Notes under the pieces: model-generated
Told to the model about the DNA's origin: nothing
Seen by the model: only the letters and a program-made list of their open reading frames with translations
Databases searched by the model: none
Assembly (NCBI GenBank): GCA_040905805.1
Contig: JBBDQS010000034.1
Span: 1 to 41,901 of the forward strand
Direction: 5' to 3'
DNA length: 41,901 bases
DNA from: Egibacteraceae bacterium
GTDB lineage: Bacteria > Actinomycetota > Nitriliruptoria > Euzebyales > Egibacteraceae
Position numbers and translations under genes: made by a program
Shown: piece after piece, positions 11,723 through 21,301 of the stretch
How positions within the stretch are numbered: position 1 is the first letter of the stretch
How the letters are laid out: the number at the start of each line of letters is the position of its first letter

Positions 11723-12535
11723 TCAGCCCCTCCCGGGGCGCCGGCACCCCTCGGCCAGGCCGGCGACGAGCTCGCGGACCGCCTCCGGCCCGCCCTCACC
11801 GGCCGCGCGCACCGCCGCGGACCCGACGATCACCCCGTCGGCGAAGCCAGCGACCTCCGCCGCGTGGGCAGCGGTCGACACGCCGATACCCACGCACACG
11901 GGCCGGTCGGTGCAGGCGCGCAGCCGCTCGACGAGGGGTGCCGCCATGGTCGACAGGGATGCCCGCTCGCCGGTGACACCGAGCGTCGAGGTCGCGTACA
12001 CGAACCCCGTCGAGGCGGCGGCGACCGCGCGCAGCCGCTCCTTGCTCGAGGTCGGGGCCGCGAGGAACACGGTCGCCAGGCCATGGGCGGCTGCGGCGGC
12101 GGTCCATGGCGCGCCCTCGTCGGCGGGCAGGTCCGGCAGGATCGCCCCGGCCAGTCCGGCGCCCGCGGCCGCGGCAGCGAAAGCGTCGAGCCGTTCGGTC
12201 CCCCCGTAGTGCCAGACGAGGTTGTAGTAGGTCATCACGAGTGCCGGCACCTCGATCGCGGCGGTGAGGGCAGCGCACATCTCCAGGTCGTCGCCGGGGG
12301 TGTAGCCGCGCTCCATGGCCGTGTGGCAGGCCGCCTGGATCACCGGACCGTCCATCAACGGGTCGGAATACGGGAAACCGACCTCCAAGAGGTCGGCGCC
12401 CGCCTCCGCCGCGGCGACCAGGCAGGCTCGTGACGTGTCGAGATCGGGATAGCCGGCGGGGAGGTAGACGATGAGCGCCGCGCGGCCGCCGTCGTTGGCC
12501 GCCCGTACCGCCTTCTCGACCATGACGGCGGTCAC
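11723..12535 (-). CDS. trpA: Tryptophan synthase alpha subunit
   Basis: Cleaves indole-3-glycerol phosphate to indole and glyceraldehyde-3-phosphate; the indole passes to TrpB. 270 residues. Catalytic Glu is in [16 protein letters not shown] and the second acid in [15 protein letters not shown]. Phosphate loops GVTGER and [11 protein letters not shown] are present. GTG at 12535 overlaps the trpB stop as GTGA; an ATG at 12523 is an alternative, giving 266 residues. It is last in trpCBA. Confidence 0.95.
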
Positions 12536-13743
12536 CCGGACACCTGCCCGCCGCGCCGCTCCAGGACCTCGAGAACCTCGTCGACGTCCTTGTCCCCCCG
12601 TCCGGACAGGTTGAGCACCACGATCCCGCTGCGGCCCACCTCCCGGGCGAGGCGGATGGCGGGCAGGACCGCGTGGGCGGGCTCCAGTGCCGGGATGATG
12701 CCTTCGAGCTCGCAGAGCAGCCCGAACCCCTCCAGCGCCTCGCCGTCGGTGGCCGTCACGTAGCGCGCGCGCCCCGTGTCGGCAAGCCAGGCGTGTTCGG
12801 GCCCGACGCCCGGGTAGTCCAGGCCGGCGGACACCGAGTGGGTCGGGCGGACCTGACCGTAGTCGTCCTGCAGCACGAACGAACGGGCGCCGTGCAGGAT
12901 GCCCTCGCTGCCCCCGGACAACGACGCCGCGTGGCGCGGGCCGTCGAGGCCCTCGCCCCCGGCCTCGACGCCCACCAGGGCCACCGTTTCGTCTGGTATG
13001 AAGGCGTGGAAGGCGCCGATGGCGTTCGAGCCTCCCCCGACGCACGCCACCACCGCGTCGGGCAGGCGGCCCTCGGTCTCGAGCATCTGCCGGCGGGCCT
13101 CCTCGCCGATGACCTTCTGGAACTCGCGCACCAGCAGCGGGAACGGGTGTGGGCCCACCACCGAGCCGATGAGGTAGTGGGTGGAGTCGACGTTGGTGAC
13201 CCAGTCGCGCATCGCCTCGTTGATGGCGTCCTTCAGCGTGCGGCTGCCGCTGGTCACCGGCACGACCTCCGCCCCCATGAGCTGCATCCGCACGACGTTC
13301 AACCGCTGGCGGCGGCAGTCCTCCTCGCCCATGTAGACCGTGCACTCCAGGCCGAACAGCGCCGCGGCTGTGGCGGTGGCGACGCCGTGCTGCCCCGCCC
13401 CCGTCTCGGCGATCACCCGGCGCTTGCCCATCCGGGTGGTCAGCAGCGCCTGCCCCAGCACGTTGTTCAGCTTGTGGCTGCCGGTGTGCGCCAGATCCTC
13501 ACGCTTGAGGTAGATGCGACCGCCTCCGGCGTGCGTGGTCAGCCGCTCGGCCAGGTAGAGCGGCGTCGGGCGACCGCCGTAGTCGCGGGCCAGCGCGGCG
13601 AGCCGCCCGGTGAACGCCGGGTCGGCCGTCGCTGCGGCGAAGGCCGCGGCGAGCTCGTCGAGCGCGGCGACCAGCGCCTCGGGCACGAAGCGCCCGCCGA
13701 ACCGTCCGTAGTGACCGAGATCAGACCGGTCGGTGGCGGTCAC
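12532..13743 (-). CDS. trpB: Tryptophan synthase beta subunit
   Basis: PLP enzyme joining indole and serine to make tryptophan, 403 residues. The PLP lysine is in [15 protein letters not shown], followed by [15 protein letters not shown]. The PLP phosphate site [11 protein letters not shown] and the C-terminal SGRGDKD are present. The start is GTG at 13743, overlapping the trpC stop (GTGA), before the typical opening [16 protein letters not shown]. The frame continues upstream but only as an out-of-frame shadow of trpC. Confidence 0.97.
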
Positions 13744-14579
13744 CGGGGCGCCCCGGTGGAGGCGTCCGCAACTTGCGCCCCCGCCGTGGCGAGCGCCCGC
13801 ACCGCCACAGCGGGGTCGTCCGCGCACGCCACGTGCTCGCCCACGAGGACGGCGTCCGCGCCCAGGGCTCCCAGCCGGCGCACGTCGTCGGGGCCCTTGA
13901 CGCCGCTCTCCGCGACCGCCAGCGCGCCGGCGGGCAAGGCGTCGACGACGGCGGCGAACCGGTCCGGGTCGACCTTCAGGCTCGTGAGGTCGCGCGCGTT
14001 GACGCCGACTACCAGGCGCCGGCCCGTGGCCGCGGCCGCGTGCGCCGTCGCAGCCCGGGTGGCCTCGCCCGCGTCGTGCACCTCGACCAGCGCATCCAGT
14101 CCGGCGCGGTCCGCGGCAGCGAGCAGGCCCTGCAGCTGCGGGTCGTCCAGCGCGGCGACGATCAGCAGCACGGCGCTGGCCCCCGATGCCCGTGCCTCCC
14201 ACACCTGGTACTCCTCGACCACGAAGTCCTTGCGCAGCACGGGAATCGCCACGGCTCCGACGACGGCCTCCACGTCGGCCAGCGACCCGCAGAACCAGTG
14301 CGGTTCGGTCAGCACGCTGACGGCGCCGGCGCCGCCCTCGGCGTAGGAACGCGCCAACGCCGCGGGGTCGGGGATCGGCGCGATCGGGCCCCGCGACGGG
14401 CTGGCCCGCTTCACCTCGGCGACGACCGTCACCCCGGGTGCAGCCAGCGCTGCCACCAACCCCGGCGGCGGGTCAGCACCCGCCACCCGGCGCCGGAGGA
14501 CGCCCAGGCTGACCACGGCGGCAGCGGCGGTGGTCCGTGCGCGCGCGGCCGCGCACGCCTCGTCCAGGAAGTTCGTCAC
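13740..14579 (-). CDS. trpC: Indole-3-glycerol-phosphate synthase
   Basis: Closes the indole ring from carboxyphenylamino-deoxyribulose phosphate, 279 residues. Family motifs are [35 protein letters not shown] and [14 protein letters not shown] at 14579 is chosen because AAGGAG lies 6 nt upstream; an in-frame ATG 30 nt earlier lacks a site. It is separated from the upstream surface-protein gene by 88 nt. Overlaps trpB by GTGA. Confidence 0.95.
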
Positions 14580-14667
14580 CGGCTGCTCCTTGGGGTGGGC
14601 AGCCATCGTAGGGCGGATCGCGGCCAAGCCGCCATCGGGGAAACGACGGTCCGGCTGGGCGACGACC

Positions 14668-16422
14668 TTACGCCTCGGCGTCGGCGCAGATGACGCTGGA
14701 GTGCGCCTCGGCGACGACGATGTCGGCTCCCTCACTGTCGAGCAGGTCCACGCGCAGACCGCGCACGGTGAACCCGTGGCCCTCACCCGCCTCGTCGGGG
14801 ATCACCTCGTTGATCCACACCTCGGCGACACCGGGGATCACGATGTTGGTGTTGGGCGGCGGGTCCAGGGGCAGCTCCACACCGGCGACCGTGACGTTGA
14901 CGAACTGCGAGCCCTCCATGGCCTCCTCGAACGTGCCCTCGTCGGGGCACGTCGACGTCGAGATCGTCCGGATCGCGTCAGCGGTGACCAACGGCTCCTC
15001 GTCGAGGGGGTCCCCCGAGAGGATCTCCAGGTCGGTGACCGCCGCCTCGCCTTGCGCGAAGCCGAGGTCGAGGTCGCCTCTGGCGAACACCTCGATCACC
15101 TCGGCCTCCACCAGCGGCTGCAGCGGCAGCCCCCCCAGCACCTCGTCGGTCTCCTCGGCCTGACGCGGCTCGGGCAACGCGATCGCCACGCTCGGCTCCT
15201 CGTCGAGCACCTCCACCCCCAGCAGGTTCACGTCCAACCCGAACGCGCTGGCGGTCAACGAGTCCGCGGGGGACGTCGGCGTCGCGCCCTCCTGCCACGT
15301 CTTGGTCGCCGTGTCGGACACCCGTGCGTCGGCGTCGGGATCGCCGGTGAACTGGATGCCGTCGGTCTCCGCGTCGGTGTCGACGACCTCACACGTCTCT
15401 CCGGGGCGCACCGGGCACGCCACGATCACGTCGCTGGCAGGGTCGCCGGGGCCCGTGTAGGTGAAAGACGACTCGCCGTCGTCCCCGGTGCGCTGCTCCT
15501 CTTGCGCAACCGGGCCGCTGAACACACCCGCACCGGTGTCGCGGTACACCTCGAAGCGCACGTTGGCGTCGGCCAGCAGCGCCTCCTCGTCGTCGCGCAC
15601 CGTCGCGGTCACCGTGTGCTCGGTGCCCACCGCGTTCGTCGCGGTCGCCGGGGTGAGATCCAACGTCTGCGCCCGGTCCTCCGCCGGGATCAACGAGCCC
15701 TCCCGCAGCGCGGCCAGCAACCGCACCAGGAACGACGCCATCTGGTCACGCCGCGTCGACGTGGCCGGGTCGTAGGTGCTCGCCGTGCGCCCGATCGTCA
15801 GGTTCAGCGCCTGCGCCCCGTTGATGTTGCGGGCATGCACGTTGCTCGCCGGCACATCGGTGAACGGCCCGCTGTCCCGCTGCAGGTTCTCCAGCGGCAC
15901 GTCCTCGATGAACGACGCCGCCCGCAAGATGAACGAGGCGATCTGATCACGCCGCAGCGGCAACGACGGGCTGTAGGTCGTGGAGGTCGTGCCCGCGGTG
16001 ATCCCGGTCGCGGCGAGGATGTTGATGTTGTCCTCGTGGACGTTGCCCGAGATGTCGGTGAAGCCCTGGTCGCTGGCCGGGGGCAGATCCACATCCGCCG
16101 CCCGCAACGTGCGCACCATGAACGACGCGAACTGGTCACGCTGCACCTGCGTGCTCGGCCGGAAGCTCCGATCCGCGAAACCCAGCGCGATGTCGTTGTT
16201 GTACGCGCAGTCCACGTTCAACCGGTGCACCTCAGGGATCTGCAACCGGTCGGTGAACGGCGCCGGAGGGTTGACCTCGTCAGGACACGCATCGTTGGGG
16301 TCGTCCACCGGCTCCTGCGCCAACCCCACCAACGGCAGCAACGACACCGCCATCAGCGCCACGGCCACCGCCGCCACAATCCGCCACGGGTACGAACCCA
16401 TCGTGCTCGTCTGCTGCGTCAT
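14668..16422 (-). CDS. SLH-domain surface protein with one Ig-like domain (short paralogue)
   Basis: Secreted S-layer-type protein, 584 residues. Signal peptide ends PLVGLAQ. Three S-layer-homology repeats (about 45-230) follow: GFADRSFRPSTQVQRDQF, then FTDISGNVHEDNINILAATG, then FTDVPASNVHARNING. One bacterial Ig-like (Big_1-type) domain covers about 255-375. The C-terminal ~190 residues resemble the choice-of-anchor-P beta domain (SLTASAFGLDVNLLG to VVAEAHSSVIC). The second of two ATGs (16422) is preferred: GGAGG is 7 nt upstream, the same spacing as in the paralogue. The SLH and C-terminal DNA blocks are identical to the neighbour at 16596-19118. It lies between trpT-like and trpC genes but has no obvious link to tryptophan synthesis. 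Confidence 0.88.
   Translation of the reverse strand: MTQQTSTMGSYPWRIVAAVAVALMAVSLLPLVGLAQEPVDDPNDACPDEVNPPAPFTDRLQIPEVHRLNVDCAYNNDIALGFADRSFRPSTQVQRDQFASFMVRTLRAADVDLPPASDQGFTDISGNVHEDNINILAATGITAGTTSTTYSPSLPLRRDQIASFILRAASFIEDVPLENLQRDSGPFTDVPASNVHARNINGAQALNLTIGRTASTYDPATSTRRDQMASFLVRLLAALREGSLIPAEDRAQTLDLTPATATNAVGTEHTVTATVRDDEEALLADANVRFEVYRDTGAGVFSGPVAQEEQRTGDDGESSFTYTGPGDPASDVIVACPVRPGETCEVVDTDAETDGIQFTGDPDADARVSDTATKTWQEGATPTSPADSLTASAFGLDVNLLGVEVLDEEPSVAIALPEPRQAEETDEVLGGLPLQPLVEAEVIEVFARGDLDLGFAQGEAAVTDLEILSGDPLDEEPLVTADAIRTISTSTCPDEGTFEEAMEGSQFVNVTVAGVELPLDPPPNTNIVIPGVAEVWINEVIPDEAGEGHGFTVRGLRVDLLDSEGADIVVAEAHSSVICADAEA
14686..15176. repeat. 491-bp direct repeat, copy 1 (C-terminal domain)
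   Basis: Identical base for base to 16602-17092 at a constant offset of 1916 bp. It encodes the C-terminal domain of the short SLH paralogue. Mismatches begin at 15177 (A) versus 17093 (G), and at 14685 on the other side. Confidence 0.95.
15815..16228. repeat. 414-bp direct repeat, copy 1 (SLH region)
   Basis: Identical base for base to 18508-18921 at an offset of 2693 bp. It encodes most of the three SLH repeats. First differences are at 15814 and 16229. Confidence 0.95.
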
Positions 16423-16459
16423 CATCGGGCCTCCAACCTGAAAGGTGCTCTATCGCTTG

Positions 16460-16483
16460 CCGGCACCGAGACCGGTGCCGGCT
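16460..16483. terminator. Hairpin between the two SLH genes
   Basis: GCCGGCACC and GGTGCCGGC form a 9-bp stem around a 6-nt loop in the 173-nt gap between the paralogues. It could stop transcription of the upstream gene or lie in the leader of the short paralogue. There is no T-run. Confidence 0.5.
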
Positions 16484-16553
16484 CGTCACGAGCGGTCCCG
16501 ACGCCGCGTGTCAGTACCTCATGGCGGTCGCTGCGCGACCACCTCACCCGGCA

Positions 16554-16590
16554 CAGCGGAGAATCGCCTCCGCTGGCGCTCCGGCGATTC
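16554..16590. terminator. Overlapping alternative hairpins just after the long SLH gene
   Basis: Two 8-bp stems share bases: CAGCGGAG/CTCCGCTG (16554-16561 with 16568-16575) and GAATCGCC/GGCGATTC (16561-16568 with 16583-16590). They lie 5 nt past the stop codon of the long paralogue. Only one can form at a time. Confidence 0.5.
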
Positions 16591-16595
16591 ACGTG

Positions 16596-19118
16596 TCAGT
16601 TGCAGATGACGCTGGAGTGCGCCTCGGCGACGACGATGTCGGCTCCCTCACTGTCGAGCAGGTCCACGCGCAGACCGCGCACGGTGAACCCGTGGCCCTC
16701 ACCCGCCTCGTCGGGGATCACCTCGTTGATCCACACCTCGGCGACACCGGGGATCACGATGTTGGTGTTGGGCGGCGGGTCCAGGGGCAGCTCCACACCG
16801 GCGACCGTGACGTTGACGAACTGCGAGCCCTCCATGGCCTCCTCGAACGTGCCCTCGTCGGGGCACGTCGACGTCGAGATCGTCCGGATCGCGTCAGCGG
16901 TGACCAACGGCTCCTCGTCGAGGGGGTCCCCCGAGAGGATCTCCAGGTCGGTGACCGCCGCCTCGCCTTGCGCGAAGCCGAGGTCGAGGTCGCCTCTGGC
17001 GAACACCTCGATCACCTCGGCCTCCACCAGCGGCTGCAGCGGCAGCCCCCCCAGCACCTCGTCGGTCTCCTCGGCCTGACGCGGCTCGGGCAGCGCGATC
17101 GCCACGCTCGGCTCCTCGTCGAGCAGGTGCAGCCCCAGCAGGGTCACGTCCAACCCGAACGCGCTCGCGGTCAACGACTCCGCCCCGACCGGATCCAGCC
17201 ACGTTTTGGTGGCCACGATGTTGGGCTCGGCGCCCACCACCGGGACACCGACGAACTGGATGCCCGCGGTGCCCGCGTCGGTGTCGGTGACCTGGCAGGT
17301 GCCCTCGTCGGGCGCGCAGATCACGATGCGGTCCACCGCCTCGGCGTCGTGGCTGTAGGTGAAGGTGGCCACCCCATCCCCGTCGGTGGTGACCGTTGCC
17401 GACTCCACCGGACCCGAGAACGTCGCGTCGGCGGTCTCCGCCCGGTACACCTCGAAGCGGATCGCGGCGCCCTCCACCAACTCGTCCTCGAAGCGGGCGG
17501 TGGCCGTCAGCGTGTGGTCCGCACCCAGCGGGTTGACCGCATTCAGCTCACCATCACCGAGCTCGATCTCGTCCACCGGCGGCACGTCCTGCCACGTCTT
17601 GGTGGCCACGATGCTGGGCTCGGCGCCCACCACCGGGACACCGACGAACTGGGTCCCCGCGGTGACGGGATCGGTGTCGGTCACCTGGCAGGTGCCCTCC
17701 TCGGGCGCGCAGACCACGATGCGGTCCACCGCTTCGGCGTCGTGGCTGTAGGTGAACGTGGCCACCCCATCCCCGTCGGTGGTGACCGTCGCCGACTCCA
17801 CCGGACCCGAGAACGTCGCGTCGGCGGTCTCCGCCCGGTACACCTCGAAGCGGATCGCGGCGCCGGCGACCGTCTCGCCATCGACATCACGGGCGGTGGC
17901 CGTCAGCGTGTGGTCCGCACCCAGCGGGTTGACCGCGTTCAGCTGACCATCACCGAGCTCGATCTCGTCGACCGGGGGCGGCTCGACCCACGTCTTGGTC
18001 GCCGTGTCGGACACCCGTGCGTCGGCGTCGGGATCCCCGGTGAACTGGATGTCCTCGGTCTCCGCGTCGGTGTCGACGACCTCGCAGGTCTCCTCGGGGC
18101 GCACCGGACACGCCACGATCACGTCCTCGACGGGCTCACCCGGGCCGGTGTAGGAAAAGCCCGACTGCCCCTGGCTGTCGGTGCGCTGCTCGCCCTGCTC
18201 CACCGGCCCGCTGAACACGCCCTCACCGGTGTCGCGGTAGACCTCGAAGCGCACGTTGGCGTCGGCCAGCAGCGCTGCCTCGTCGTCGCGGACCGTCGCG
18301 GTCACCGTGTGCTGGGTCCCCACCGGGTTGGTCGCCGTCGCCGGGGTGAGGTCAAGCGTCTCCGCCCGGTCCTCCGCCGGGATCAGCGGGCCCTCCCGCA
18401 GCGCGGCCAGCAACCGCACCAGGAACGACGCCATCTGGTCGCGCCGCGTGGCCGTGCCCGGCTCGTAGGTCCCCGCCGTGCGCCCGATCGTCAGGTTCAG
18501 CGCCCGTGCCCCGTTGATGTTGCGGGCATGCACGTTGCTCGCCGGCACATCGGTGAACGGCCCGCTGTCCCGCTGCAGGTTCTCCAGCGGCACGTCCTCG
18601 ATGAACGACGCCGCCCGCAAGATGAACGAGGCGATCTGATCACGCCGCAGCGGCAACGACGGGCTGTAGGTCGTGGAGGTCGTGCCCGCGGTGATCCCGG
18701 TCGCGGCGAGGATGTTGATGTTGTCCTCGTGGACGTTGCCCGAGATGTCGGTGAAGCCCTGGTCGCTGGCCGGGGGCAGATCCACATCCGCCGCCCGCAA
18801 CGTGCGCACCATGAACGACGCGAACTGGTCACGCTGCACCTGCGTGCTCGGCCGGAAGCTCCGATCCGCGAAACCCAGCGCGATGTCGTTGTTGTACGCG
18901 CAGTCCACGTTCAACCGGTGCGCCTCGGGGACCTGCAGCCGGTCGGTGAACGGCGCCGGAGGGTTGACCTCGTCAGGACACGCATCCTGCGGGTTCTCCA
19001 CCGGCTCAGGCTGCGCCAACCCCACCATCGGCAGCAACGACACCGCCATAAGCGCCGCGGCCACCGCCGCCACGCCCCGCCACCGGTACCAACCCGCCAC
19101 ACTCGTCTGCTGTGTCAT
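16596..19118 (-). CDS. SLH-domain surface protein with three Ig-like domains (long paralogue)
   Basis: Secreted S-layer-type protein, 840 residues, same plan as the 14668-16422 gene. It has a signal peptide (ending MVGLAQ), three SLH repeats (about 45-230), Ig-like domains (about 253-378, 383-512, 513-642) and the choice-of-anchor-P-like C-terminal domain (about 645-840). Ig-like domain 1 matches that of the paralogue; domains 2 and 3 are near-identical copies with a 393-bp period. SLH repeats probably bind pyruvylated secondary wall polymer; the Ig stalk length differs between the paralogues. ATG start with GGAGG 7 nt upstream. The 156-nt gap after the Trp-associated membrane gene holds alternative hairpins and possibly its own promoter. 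Confidence 0.88.
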   Translation of the reverse strand: MTQQTSVAGWYRWRGVAAVAAALMAVSLLPMVGLAQPEPVENPQDACPDEVNPPAPFTDRLQVPEAHRLNVDCAYNNDIALGFADRSFRPSTQVQRDQFASFMVRTLRAADVDLPPASDQGFTDISGNVHEDNINILAATGITAGTTSTTYSPSLPLRRDQIASFILRAASFIEDVPLENLQRDSGPFTDVPASNVHARNINGARALNLTIGRTAGTYEPGTATRRDQMASFLVRLLAALREGPLIPAEDRAETLDLTPATATNPVGTQHTVTATVRDDEAALLADANVRFEVYRDTGEGVFSGPVEQGEQRTDSQGQSGFSYTGPGEPVEDVIVACPVRPEETCEVVDTDAETEDIQFTGDPDADARVSDTATKTWVEPPPVDEIELGDGQLNAVNPLGADHTLTATARDVDGETVAGAAIRFEVYRAETADATFSGPVESATVTTDGDGVATFTYSHDAEAVDRIVVCAPEEGTCQVTDTDPVTAGTQFVGVPVVGAEPSIVATKTWQDVPPVDEIELGDGELNAVNPLGADHTLTATARFEDELVEGAAIRFEVYRAETADATFSGPVESATVTTDGDGVATFTYSHDAEAVDRIVICAPDEGTCQVTDTDAGTAGIQFVGVPVVGAEPNIVATKTWLDPVGAESLTASAFGLDVTLLGLHLLDEEPSVAIALPEPRQAEETDEVLGGLPLQPLVEAEVIEVFARGDLDLGFAQGEAAVTDLEILSGDPLDEEPLVTADAIRTISTSTCPDEGTFEEAMEGSQFVNVTVAGVELPLDPPPNTNIVIPGVAEVWINEVIPDEAGEGHGFTVRGLRVDLLDSEGADIVVAEAHSSVICN
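16602..17092. repeat. 491-bp direct repeat, copy 2 (C-terminal domain)
   Basis: Partner of 14686-15176, same orientation, no mismatch found on line-by-line comparison. Confidence 0.95.
17197..17982. repeat. Two tandem 393-bp units encoding Ig-like domains 3 and 2
   Basis: Sequence at 17209 recurs at 17602, and the block at about 17360-17470 recurs at about 17753-17863, a constant 393-bp (131-codon) period. Stretches of about 60 bp or more are identical, with scattered differences elsewhere. This is an internal duplication of one Ig-like module. Confidence 0.85.
18508..18921. repeat. 414-bp direct repeat, copy 2 (SLH region)
   Basis: Partner of 15815-16228, same orientation, no mismatch found. 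Confidence 0.95.
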
Positions 19119-19234
19119 CCTCGGTCCTCCAACTCGCTCACCAGGGCTGCCCGCACATGACCGCGAGACGGGCCGGGAGAAACTCCTGCTCGACGCTCCT
19201 AACGCCCGAGCCGCCGATGCGTGACGCCCGATGC

Positions 19235-19261
19235 CCCCCGAAAGGGGGATTCATGATCCCC
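19235..19261. promoter_or_regulatory. Alternative hairpins upstream of the long SLH gene
   Basis: CCCCC-GAAA-GGGGG (19235-19248) and GGGGAT-TCATG-ATCCCC (19245-19261) share the central G-run, so they exclude each other. They lie 14 nt beyond the Trp-associated gene's stop and over 110 nt before the SLH gene start. They could be a terminator or a switchable leader. Confidence 0.45.
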
Positions 19262-19274
19262 TATAGGTGGGATG

Positions 19275-19784
19275 TCATGGTTCGTCGCTGGCGAGCCCCC
19301 AATCACCCTGGTCCTGGCCGGCGGCCCCGTCGATCGAGTACCGGTCGCCGAGCGCCGGCGGCGGCGCCGGGCGGCGCCACGCCACGACCCCGGCGCCGGC
19401 GATGGCCACCGCTCCGAGGCCGGCGACCCACGGCGCGGTGGTCAGGCGTCCGGGTGCATCCAGCGCGCGGACGACGCCGACGGCGACCACGACGACCGTC
19501 ACCGTTCCGACCAGGCACAGCAGCGCACCGAGCACGCGCCGCCCGCGCCCACGCGCCACAATCAACCCCAGCCCACCGAGGACGGCGAGCACCCCCGCCG
19601 CGATCCCCCTTGCGGCCAGCGCGATACCCGCCGTGCCCTCGGGCTCGGCCAGGGGCACGCCCCCGACCTCGCGGACCTGTTCGGTCACCACCCAGTTGCC
19701 GCTCGTCGCGCCGACCAGGAGCAGCCCGCCGATCACCGCCAGACCGACGGCCAGCGGGGGGAACGTCGTTCCATTCACCGTCAC
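19275..19784 (-). CDS. Tryptophan-operon-associated membrane protein
   Basis: 169 residues with four hydrophobic helices (LAVGLAVIGGLLLVGATSG first), a conserved-looking TSGNWV segment and a polar C-terminal tail. Size, topology and position directly after trpE match the actinobacterial Trp_oprn_chp family (PF09534), whose function is unknown. GTG at 19784 overlaps the trpE stop as GTGA, so it is translationally coupled. In many actinobacteria trpC follows closely; here two surface-protein genes intervene. Confidence 0.85.
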   Translation of the reverse strand: MTVNGTTFPPLAVGLAVIGGLLLVGATSGNWVVTEQVREVGGVPLAEPEGTAGIALAARGIAAGVLAVLGGLGLIVARGRGRRVLGALLCLVGTVTVVVVAVGVVRALDAPGRLTTAPWVAGLGAVAIAGAGVVAWRRPAPPPALGDRYSIDGAAGQDQGDWGLASDEP

Positions 19785-21301
19785 CGCCCGCGGACGGTCG
19801 GCCCGGCCATCAGCCGCTCGGCGGCCCGGACAGCGGCGAGCAGCGCCATCGCCTTGTCCTGCGTCTCCGCGTACTCCTGTTCCGGGACGCTGTCGGCGAC
19901 CACGCCGGCACCGGCCTGCACGTGGGCCCGCCCGCCGGTGAGCACGAGCGTGCGTATCGCGATGCACAGGTCGACGTTGCCGGCGAGGTCGAGGTAGCCG
20001 ATCCCCCCACCGTAGAGACCCCGCCGCGTGCCCTCCAGCTCGTCGATGATCTCCATCGCGCGGACCTTCGGCGCCCCGGTCAGGGTGCCTGCCGGGAACG
20101 TCGCCCGCAGCACGTCCACGGGGCCGACGCCGCGGCGCACCGTGCCGGTCACCCGCGAGGAGATGTGCATGACGTGGCTGTACCGCACGACCTCCATGAA
20201 GTCCGCGACGCGCACTGAGGCGGTCTCGCAGACCCGACCGAGGTCGTTGCGGGCGAGGTCGACGAGCATGACGTGCTCGGCCCGCTCCTTCTCGTCGGCG
20301 AGCAGGGACCGGCCCAGCTGGATGTCCTCCTCATCGGTCGCCCCTCGCGGCCGCGAACCCGCGATCGGCCAGATCGAGGCGGTGCAGCCCTGCACCCGCA
20401 CCAGCGCCTCCGGTGAGGAGCCCACGACCTGCAGGTCCCCGTAGTCGAACAGGTACAGGTACGGCGACGGGTTGATGACGCGCAGCACGCGGTAGACGGC
20501 GAACGCGTCCACGTCGGTCTCCAGCGAGAACCGCTGGGACGGCACCACCTGGAAGATGTCACCGGCCCGGATGTGCTCCTTCGCGGACTCGACGGCGCCC
20601 AGGTACTGCTCCTTGCTCATGTTCGCGGCGGCGTCCGCGACCGAGGTCGCCTCGGGCGGCGCGGCGGGCGGCGCATGGACCTGACCCCCGAGCATCGCGA
20701 TCAGGCGTTCGGAGTCCACCACCGCCTGGTCGTACTGCCGCCCCGGGTCGTCGCCGACCAGGATGTTGGACACCACGAGCAGGCGCTGGCGCAGATGGTC
20801 GAACGCCACCAGCTGTCCGGGGAACATCAGGCGCACGTCGTCCATGCCGAGGTCGTCGACCGTGCCGTCGGGCAGCGCCTCGATGTAGCGCACCACGTCG
20901 TAGCCGAGGTAGCCGACCGCACCGGCGAACAGCGGCGGGAGCCCGGCCAGCTCCGGCGCCCGCAGCGTCCCCATCAGCGCCTCCAACGTCGCCAGGGGGT
21001 CGCCCGTCTCGGCCGCCTCCCGAGCGGTCGGCGGGGCTGTCCCCTCCAGGCGCACCATGCCCCCGCGGGCGGACATGGTGAGGAATGGCCGCAGACCGAT
21101 GAACGAGTAGCGCCCCCAGCGCTCGCCGTGCTCGACGGACTCGAGCAGGAAGGTCGGCCCTTCGACGCCGCGGAGCCGGTCGTACACCGCCACCGGTGTC
21201 TGCAGGTCGGCGAGCACCTCGCGCCACACCGGCACGACCGCATGGGTGCGGGCGAGGTCGACGACCTCGTCACGCCCCGGCCGATAGGGCGCGGCCGTCA
21301 C
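19781..21301 (-). CDS. trpE: Anthranilate synthase component I
   Basis: Converts chorismate to anthranilate using ammonia from the TrpG subunit (not in the window). 506 residues. The N-terminal LLES (in [13 protein letters not shown]) is the tryptophan feedback-binding motif, so end-product inhibition is expected. The chorismate-binding domain has [33 protein letters not shown] and [23 protein letters not shown] at 21301 overlaps the hisI stop (GTGA), joining the his and trp parts of the cluster. There is no room for a Trp attenuator in front of it. Confidence 0.96.

Follow-up and report, generated by a model that had tools for sequence, protein, structure and literature searches.

A tandem pair of SLH genes in the trp gene cluster

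The window, by which we mean the whole stretch of 41,901 nucleotides analyzed here, belongs to the 3.6 Mb genome of an Egibacteraceae bacterium (G000), which is represented by a single draft assembly of 166 contigs. The one other genome of the genus available for comparison, here called the congener (G001), served as the outgroup. The window contained 2 adjacent genes on the minus strand, which we refer to as A and B, with B located immediately upstream of A (Table 1). The pair was situated inside the trp gene cluster (positions 12532 to 21301), with trpE and a gene for a small membrane protein on one side and trpC-trpB on the other. Upstream of the start codon, A and B had no more than about 12 bp of related DNA, and a scan for consensus promoters and terminators gave nothing at the pair.

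Table 1. Features of the tandem gene pair and its surroundings, with positions given in the window.
Feature	Position	Strand	Basis
Gene B (upstream copy), 840 amino acids	16596..19118	-	ORF; Pfam SLH 3.3e-11, Big_1 6.9e-11 (3 stretches); NF040603 111 bits
Gene A (downstream copy), 585 amino acids	14668..16425	-	ORF; Pfam SLH 3.7e-10, Big_1 8e-4 (below curated cut-off); NF040603 113 bits
414-bp tract, A copy; residues 66-204, SLH1 to middle of SLH3	15815..16228	-	Exact match to 18508-18921
414-bp tract, B copy	18508..18921	-	Exact match
491-bp tract, A copy; residues 417-580, most of choice-of-anchor P domain	14686..15176	-	Exact match to 16602-17092
491-bp tract, B copy	16602..17092	-	Exact match
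Diverged core of A, single Ig module	15295..15666	-	A-B comparison of Ig1
Second and third Ig modules of B, absent from A; ends approximate	17178..17975	-	393/396-bp direct repeat, about 92% to 93% alike
REP/BIME-like dispersed repeat between B and A	16505..16599	-	Its CTGA provides the stop codon of B
trpC, downstream anchor	13740..14579	-	NCBIfam TrpC models, best 1.5e-85 (286.6 bits, cut-off 329)
trpE and small membrane protein gene, upstream anchor	19275..21301	-	TIGR00564 551 bits for trpE

The 2 proteins had a common layout, consisting of a signal peptide (a hydrophobic N-terminus, judged by eye), 3 SLH modules, Big_1-like modules, of which there was 1 in A and 3 in B, and a choice-of-anchor P domain. 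The SLH modules scored 40 to 43 bits, above the Pfam cut-off of 20.8, and both proteins belonged to the choice-of-anchor P family by scores far above the curated cut-off of 27 bits. The structure model of the full-length B protein was poor (mean pLDDT 38), and the choice-of-anchor P domain gave a confident all-beta AlphaFold model (pLDDT 89, pTM 0.87; positions 14692 to 15255). A search of solved structures by fold and by sequence gave no match to this domain, and no activity could therefore be inferred for it; the modeled fold may be novel or have few known representatives. It was also noted that 2 choice-of-anchor P domains occurred in one protein, apparently in one frame, in L110 (G008:C60:23063-24226) and at G059:C18:33203-34309.

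Judging from the domain families, the A and B proteins are probably held at the cell wall by binding of the SLH modules to a pyruvylated polymer, and their likely role is to carry the choice-of-anchor P domain on Ig spacers, closer to the wall in one protein and farther from it in the other. The genome of the window was rich in SLH proteins, with 64 matching stretches, and encoded a single CsaB-like pyruvyl transferase homolog, which scored 195 bits against a curated cut-off of 213.1 (G000:C127:17701-18606). Several SLH genes were clustered on the contig with this homolog (G000:C127:3000-18606), and the same combination was seen on contig C21 of the congener.

Identical tracts and a diverged core

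The 491-bp and 414-bp tracts that had been reported as identical in an earlier, sequence-only reading of the window were confirmed as exact and maximal matches, with offsets of 1916 and 2693 bp, respectively. The DNA between the tracts differed by 12.8% between A and B and, as that reading had also described, B contained 2 additional Ig-like modules. In an ungapped codon alignment, 81 of the 580 codons differed, and the longest unbroken runs comprised 163 and 137 codons, whereas the longest run never exceeded 90 when the differing codons were permuted 20,000 times. Since both runs were far longer than the permutation maximum, chance could be excluded as the cause of the tracts.

The synonymous sites revealed the same pattern. 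None of the 166 fourfold sites in the tracts differed between A and B, compared to 22 of the 144 sites outside (Fisher p 2e-8). In the comparison of A with the congener, differences were observed at 23 of 50 fourfold sites in the 414-bp tract and at 31 of 54 sites in the 491-bp tract, while the corresponding counts between A and B were 0 of 71 and 0 of 95. With 54 of 104 sites in the 2 tracts together differing from the congener, the synonymous sites in the tracts are evidently free to change, and codon constraint was ruled out as the cause of the identity. Constraint at the RNA level was likewise rejected, a search with Rfam having given nothing at the pair.

The dS values between A and B were zero in the tracts, where those between A and the congener were about 0.64 to 0.66. 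Outside the tracts, they mostly ranged from about 0.12 to 0.42, peaking midway through the Ig module, and included values of 0.14 to 0.19 for the signal peptide and N-terminus and 0.12 for the end of SLH3. Values of 0.05 to 0.18, depending on the interval used in the calculation, were obtained for a short stretch where the choice-of-anchor P domain begins. The first Ig module was 85% identical in amino acid sequence between the 2 proteins (dN 0.095, dS 0.33), with differences at 15 of 68 fourfold sites. Synonymous divergence, which the sequence-only reading had suggested should be computed along the pair, was thus patchy rather than equal along both genes, the latter being a pattern that this reading had set against its own proposal.

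The suggestion that the identity ends sharply at domain edges was not borne out. The 414-bp tract began within SLH1 and stopped midway through SLH3. The 491-bp tract set in after about 25 residues of the choice-of-anchor P domain. Beside the tracts, the identity dropped stepwise, to about 90% to 97% and then lower. The only abrupt edge was the end of the 491-bp tract on the 3' side of the gene, which adjoined the REP/BIME-like element.

A dispersed repeat at the border of the 491-bp tract

The REP/BIME-like element, located between the 2 genes, both abutted the 491-bp tract and supplied the stop codon of B. It was 85 to 95 bp long, had 2 hairpins, was bounded by CTGA, and sometimes occurred in tandem. 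There were 47 matches in the genome of the window, at least 40 of them beyond the copy in the window (for example, G000:C81:18799-18892, C11:9926-10102 and C166:42761-42970), and almost none in the congener. A 28-nt core of the element had 24 matches in the genome of the window, including the copy in the window, and none in the congener or in a reversed control. As is characteristic of REP/BIME elements, the element was dispersed, palindromic, present in many copies and, judging by eye from a few of them, mostly extragenic. Several copies started with CTGA and, to judge from their placement, the TGA may serve to terminate the gene that precedes them. The REP-associated Y1 transposase (RAYT-type, PF01797) was found in neither G000 nor G001, whereas 5 of 14 control genomes were positive.

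Many contigs in the genome of the window ended inside the element, namely at the starts of C151, C133, C77, C87, C75, and C122 and at the ends of C119, C85, and C84, which suggests that it is probably a main cause of the fragmentation of the assembly.

Reliability of the assembly

A short-read draft in 166 contigs could, in principle, produce identical tracts, or the pair itself, if alleles from co-existing strains were collapsed or joined. The ends of contigs C151 and C133 shared exactly 55 bp, which points to an assembler k of about 55, and both tracts are longer than this. Isolated differences could have been lost by merging if they were spaced by more than 55 bp, and the neighboring differences between A and B outside the tracts were never more than 51 bp apart, so that the assembler could indeed have removed isolated differences inside the tracts. 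However, if k was about 55, at most about 15 of the 905 positions in the tracts (1.7%) can hide a difference, as compared to 12.8% outside (p 5e-21), and the contrast between the tracts and the surrounding DNA therefore holds even if the perfect identity does not. Moreover, the junction from B to A crosses a copy of the repeat for which the longest exact match among the scanned copies was 49 bp, which is shorter than the presumed k, and the assembly graph probably did not branch there. Given the unique trpE and trpC flanks, a path on which a 414-bp tract comes after a 491-bp tract needs 2 copies. We therefore consider an assembly artifact to be quite improbable and the tandem pair itself to be probably real. 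The assembly could nevertheless have swapped the cores between A and B, and with them the pairing of core and signal peptide.

History of the duplication

The congener contained a single orthologous gene, encoding a protein of 718 amino acids with 2 Ig modules, which was located between the gene for the membrane protein and trpC, and the trp neighbors of the gene were arranged in the same order. This gene was found at the site in none of the other genomes of the family for which the surroundings of trpC were checked. This suggests that the SLH gene probably entered the trp cluster in the genus and was then duplicated in the lineage of the window. Relative to the single-copy congener, the pair is a lineage-specific tandem duplication, and the copy number has thus changed at least once. 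In several relatives, the membrane-protein gene and trpC were separated by only about 100 to 270 bp.

Outside the tracts, 197 differences from the congener were common to A and B, while 38 to 39 changes were derived in A and 33 in B. This is what is expected from a duplication after the split from the congener, followed by evolution at similar rates in both copies, and with such a balance neither core looks imported. The second and third Ig modules of B, between which dS was 0.16, corresponded to the second module of the congener protein, the counterpart of which was missing in A. The simplest history would be that an ancestor with 2 Ig modules lost one of them in A and duplicated it in B.

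Origin of the mosaic

A mosaic of identical ends and a diverged middle, with exact tracts flanking the core on both sides, would also be obtained if a very recent duplication of the whole gene had been followed by recombination that exchanged one copy's Ig core for that of a diverged allele from another strain. Such a replacement should have made one core more derived than the other and left the region for the signal peptide identical. Instead, the derived changes were balanced, the upstream regions of A and B were unrelated, and A and B differed outside the core as well, in the signal peptide and N-terminus, at the end of SLH3 and at the start of the choice-of-anchor P domain. We therefore regard the import of a core as unlikely.

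The best explanation, which we consider to be the probable one, is a duplication followed by recent gene conversion of both ends. According to this model, a single gene for an SLH-anchored stalk protein between trpC and the membrane-protein gene on the trpE side would have been duplicated in tandem after the split from the congener, and the copies would have diverged by about 13% at the DNA level. The stalks would have changed in length independently, through the loss of the second Ig module in A and its duplication in B. Gene conversion, which is homologous recombination without crossover, would later have overwritten the SLH segment and the C-terminal domain of one gene with those of the other. 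The 2 tracts would thereby have become identical again, whereas the Ig core, with its unequal number of modules, would have remained diverged. A gene-conversion mosaic is expected to show almost no synonymous divergence within its tracts and a significantly greater one next to them, with no codon constraint at work. This is the pattern seen here, and it agrees with the recent gene conversion or recombination put forward in the sequence-only reading. The direction of the conversion and the number of events, like the process itself and the loss and gain of modules, are what we infer from this pattern, and the 2-tract mosaic fits one conversion event or several alike.

No other pair of SLH genes with long, near-identical tracts was found among the approximately 50 SLH loci fetched from the genome of the window and related genomes. 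On the basis of these loci, a family-wide homogenization of the SLH genes in the genome of the window was rejected, which argues for a local event, helped by the tandem placement of the genes, rather than a genome-wide process.

Deletion and surface variation

Since the repeats are direct, the sequence-only reading had predicted that recombination would delete 1916 or 2693 bp and leave one functional gene with a changed stalk. Both sizes were correct: deletion through the C-terminal tracts would give an open gene for a protein of 844 amino acids with 3 Ig modules, and deletion through the SLH tracts an open gene for a protein of 585 amino acids with a single module. Surface variation by deletion is thus possible, if unsupported; the length of the stalk could change, and the trigger would be ordinary recombination between direct repeats.

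A stronger version would be that the pair is a contingency or phase-variation locus, in which recombination between the direct repeats recurrently deletes and rebuilds the copies, switching between proteins with 1 and 3 Ig modules. That each deletion leaves one open reading frame with a different stalk length, and that the congener has one gene with 2 modules, is in line with such a locus. However, deletion is a one-way process, and regeneration of the pair would require another duplication. Furthermore, none of the 65 further genomes of the class contained the tandem pair, neither a dedicated recombinase nor a recombination site was apparent beside it, and dN was below dS in the Ig core (0.10 vs. 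0.33), so that the excess of amino acid changes expected from strong diversifying selection was not seen. We consider phase variation to be very unlikely. It is just as doubtful that the pair acts as a switch at the population level, in which ongoing conversion would keep the tracts identical, cells would carry the 1-module protein, the 3-module protein or both, and the cores would be exchanged between promoter and signal-peptide contexts.

Comparison with known systems

The pair appears to be a clean, outgroup-anchored case of 2 recently homogenized tracts in tandem genes for wall-anchored Ig-stalk proteins, from a high-GC lineage known here from draft genomes, in which duplication, loss and gain of modules, and conversion would all be displayed at one locus. 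Such evolution is ordinary, and the pair leaves the knowledge of how bacterial surface proteins evolve unchanged.

In their layout, the A and B proteins resemble SLH-module proteins that have stalks of bacterial Ig-like modules (Pfam SLH, Big_1), with which they share the signal peptide, the 3 N-terminal SLH modules, the Ig-like spacers, and a number of modules that varies between paralogs. They are distinguished from these by the C-terminal choice-of-anchor P domain (NF040603) and by an SLH motif that reads RRDQ or QRDQ, the textbook form being TRAE.

Variation has been reported for the surface-layer paralogs encoded by the sap S-layer gene family in Campylobacter fetus (PMC3887049). The likeness to A and B lies in the paralogy of surface-layer proteins, and recombination in the sap family changes the surface. 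The sap system has a movable promoter, several silent cassettes and demonstrated switching, whereas these are neither present nor shown for A and B.

The closest published parallel that we found, at the DNA level, is provided by the tandem arrays of tipC and esaG immunity genes at type VII secretion loci, which have conserved blocks near both ends of the genes and variable middles, and in which recombination between the blocks reshuffles the genes and alters their copy number (PMC9484751). The arrangement of tandem paralogs with conserved end blocks and variable middles is shared with A and B. For the tipC and esaG arrays, the recombination was inferred from numerous gene copies in many firmicute strains, whereas the pair described here consists of 2 copies in one genome, encodes a wall-anchored surface protein, and differs in the number of Ig modules as well.
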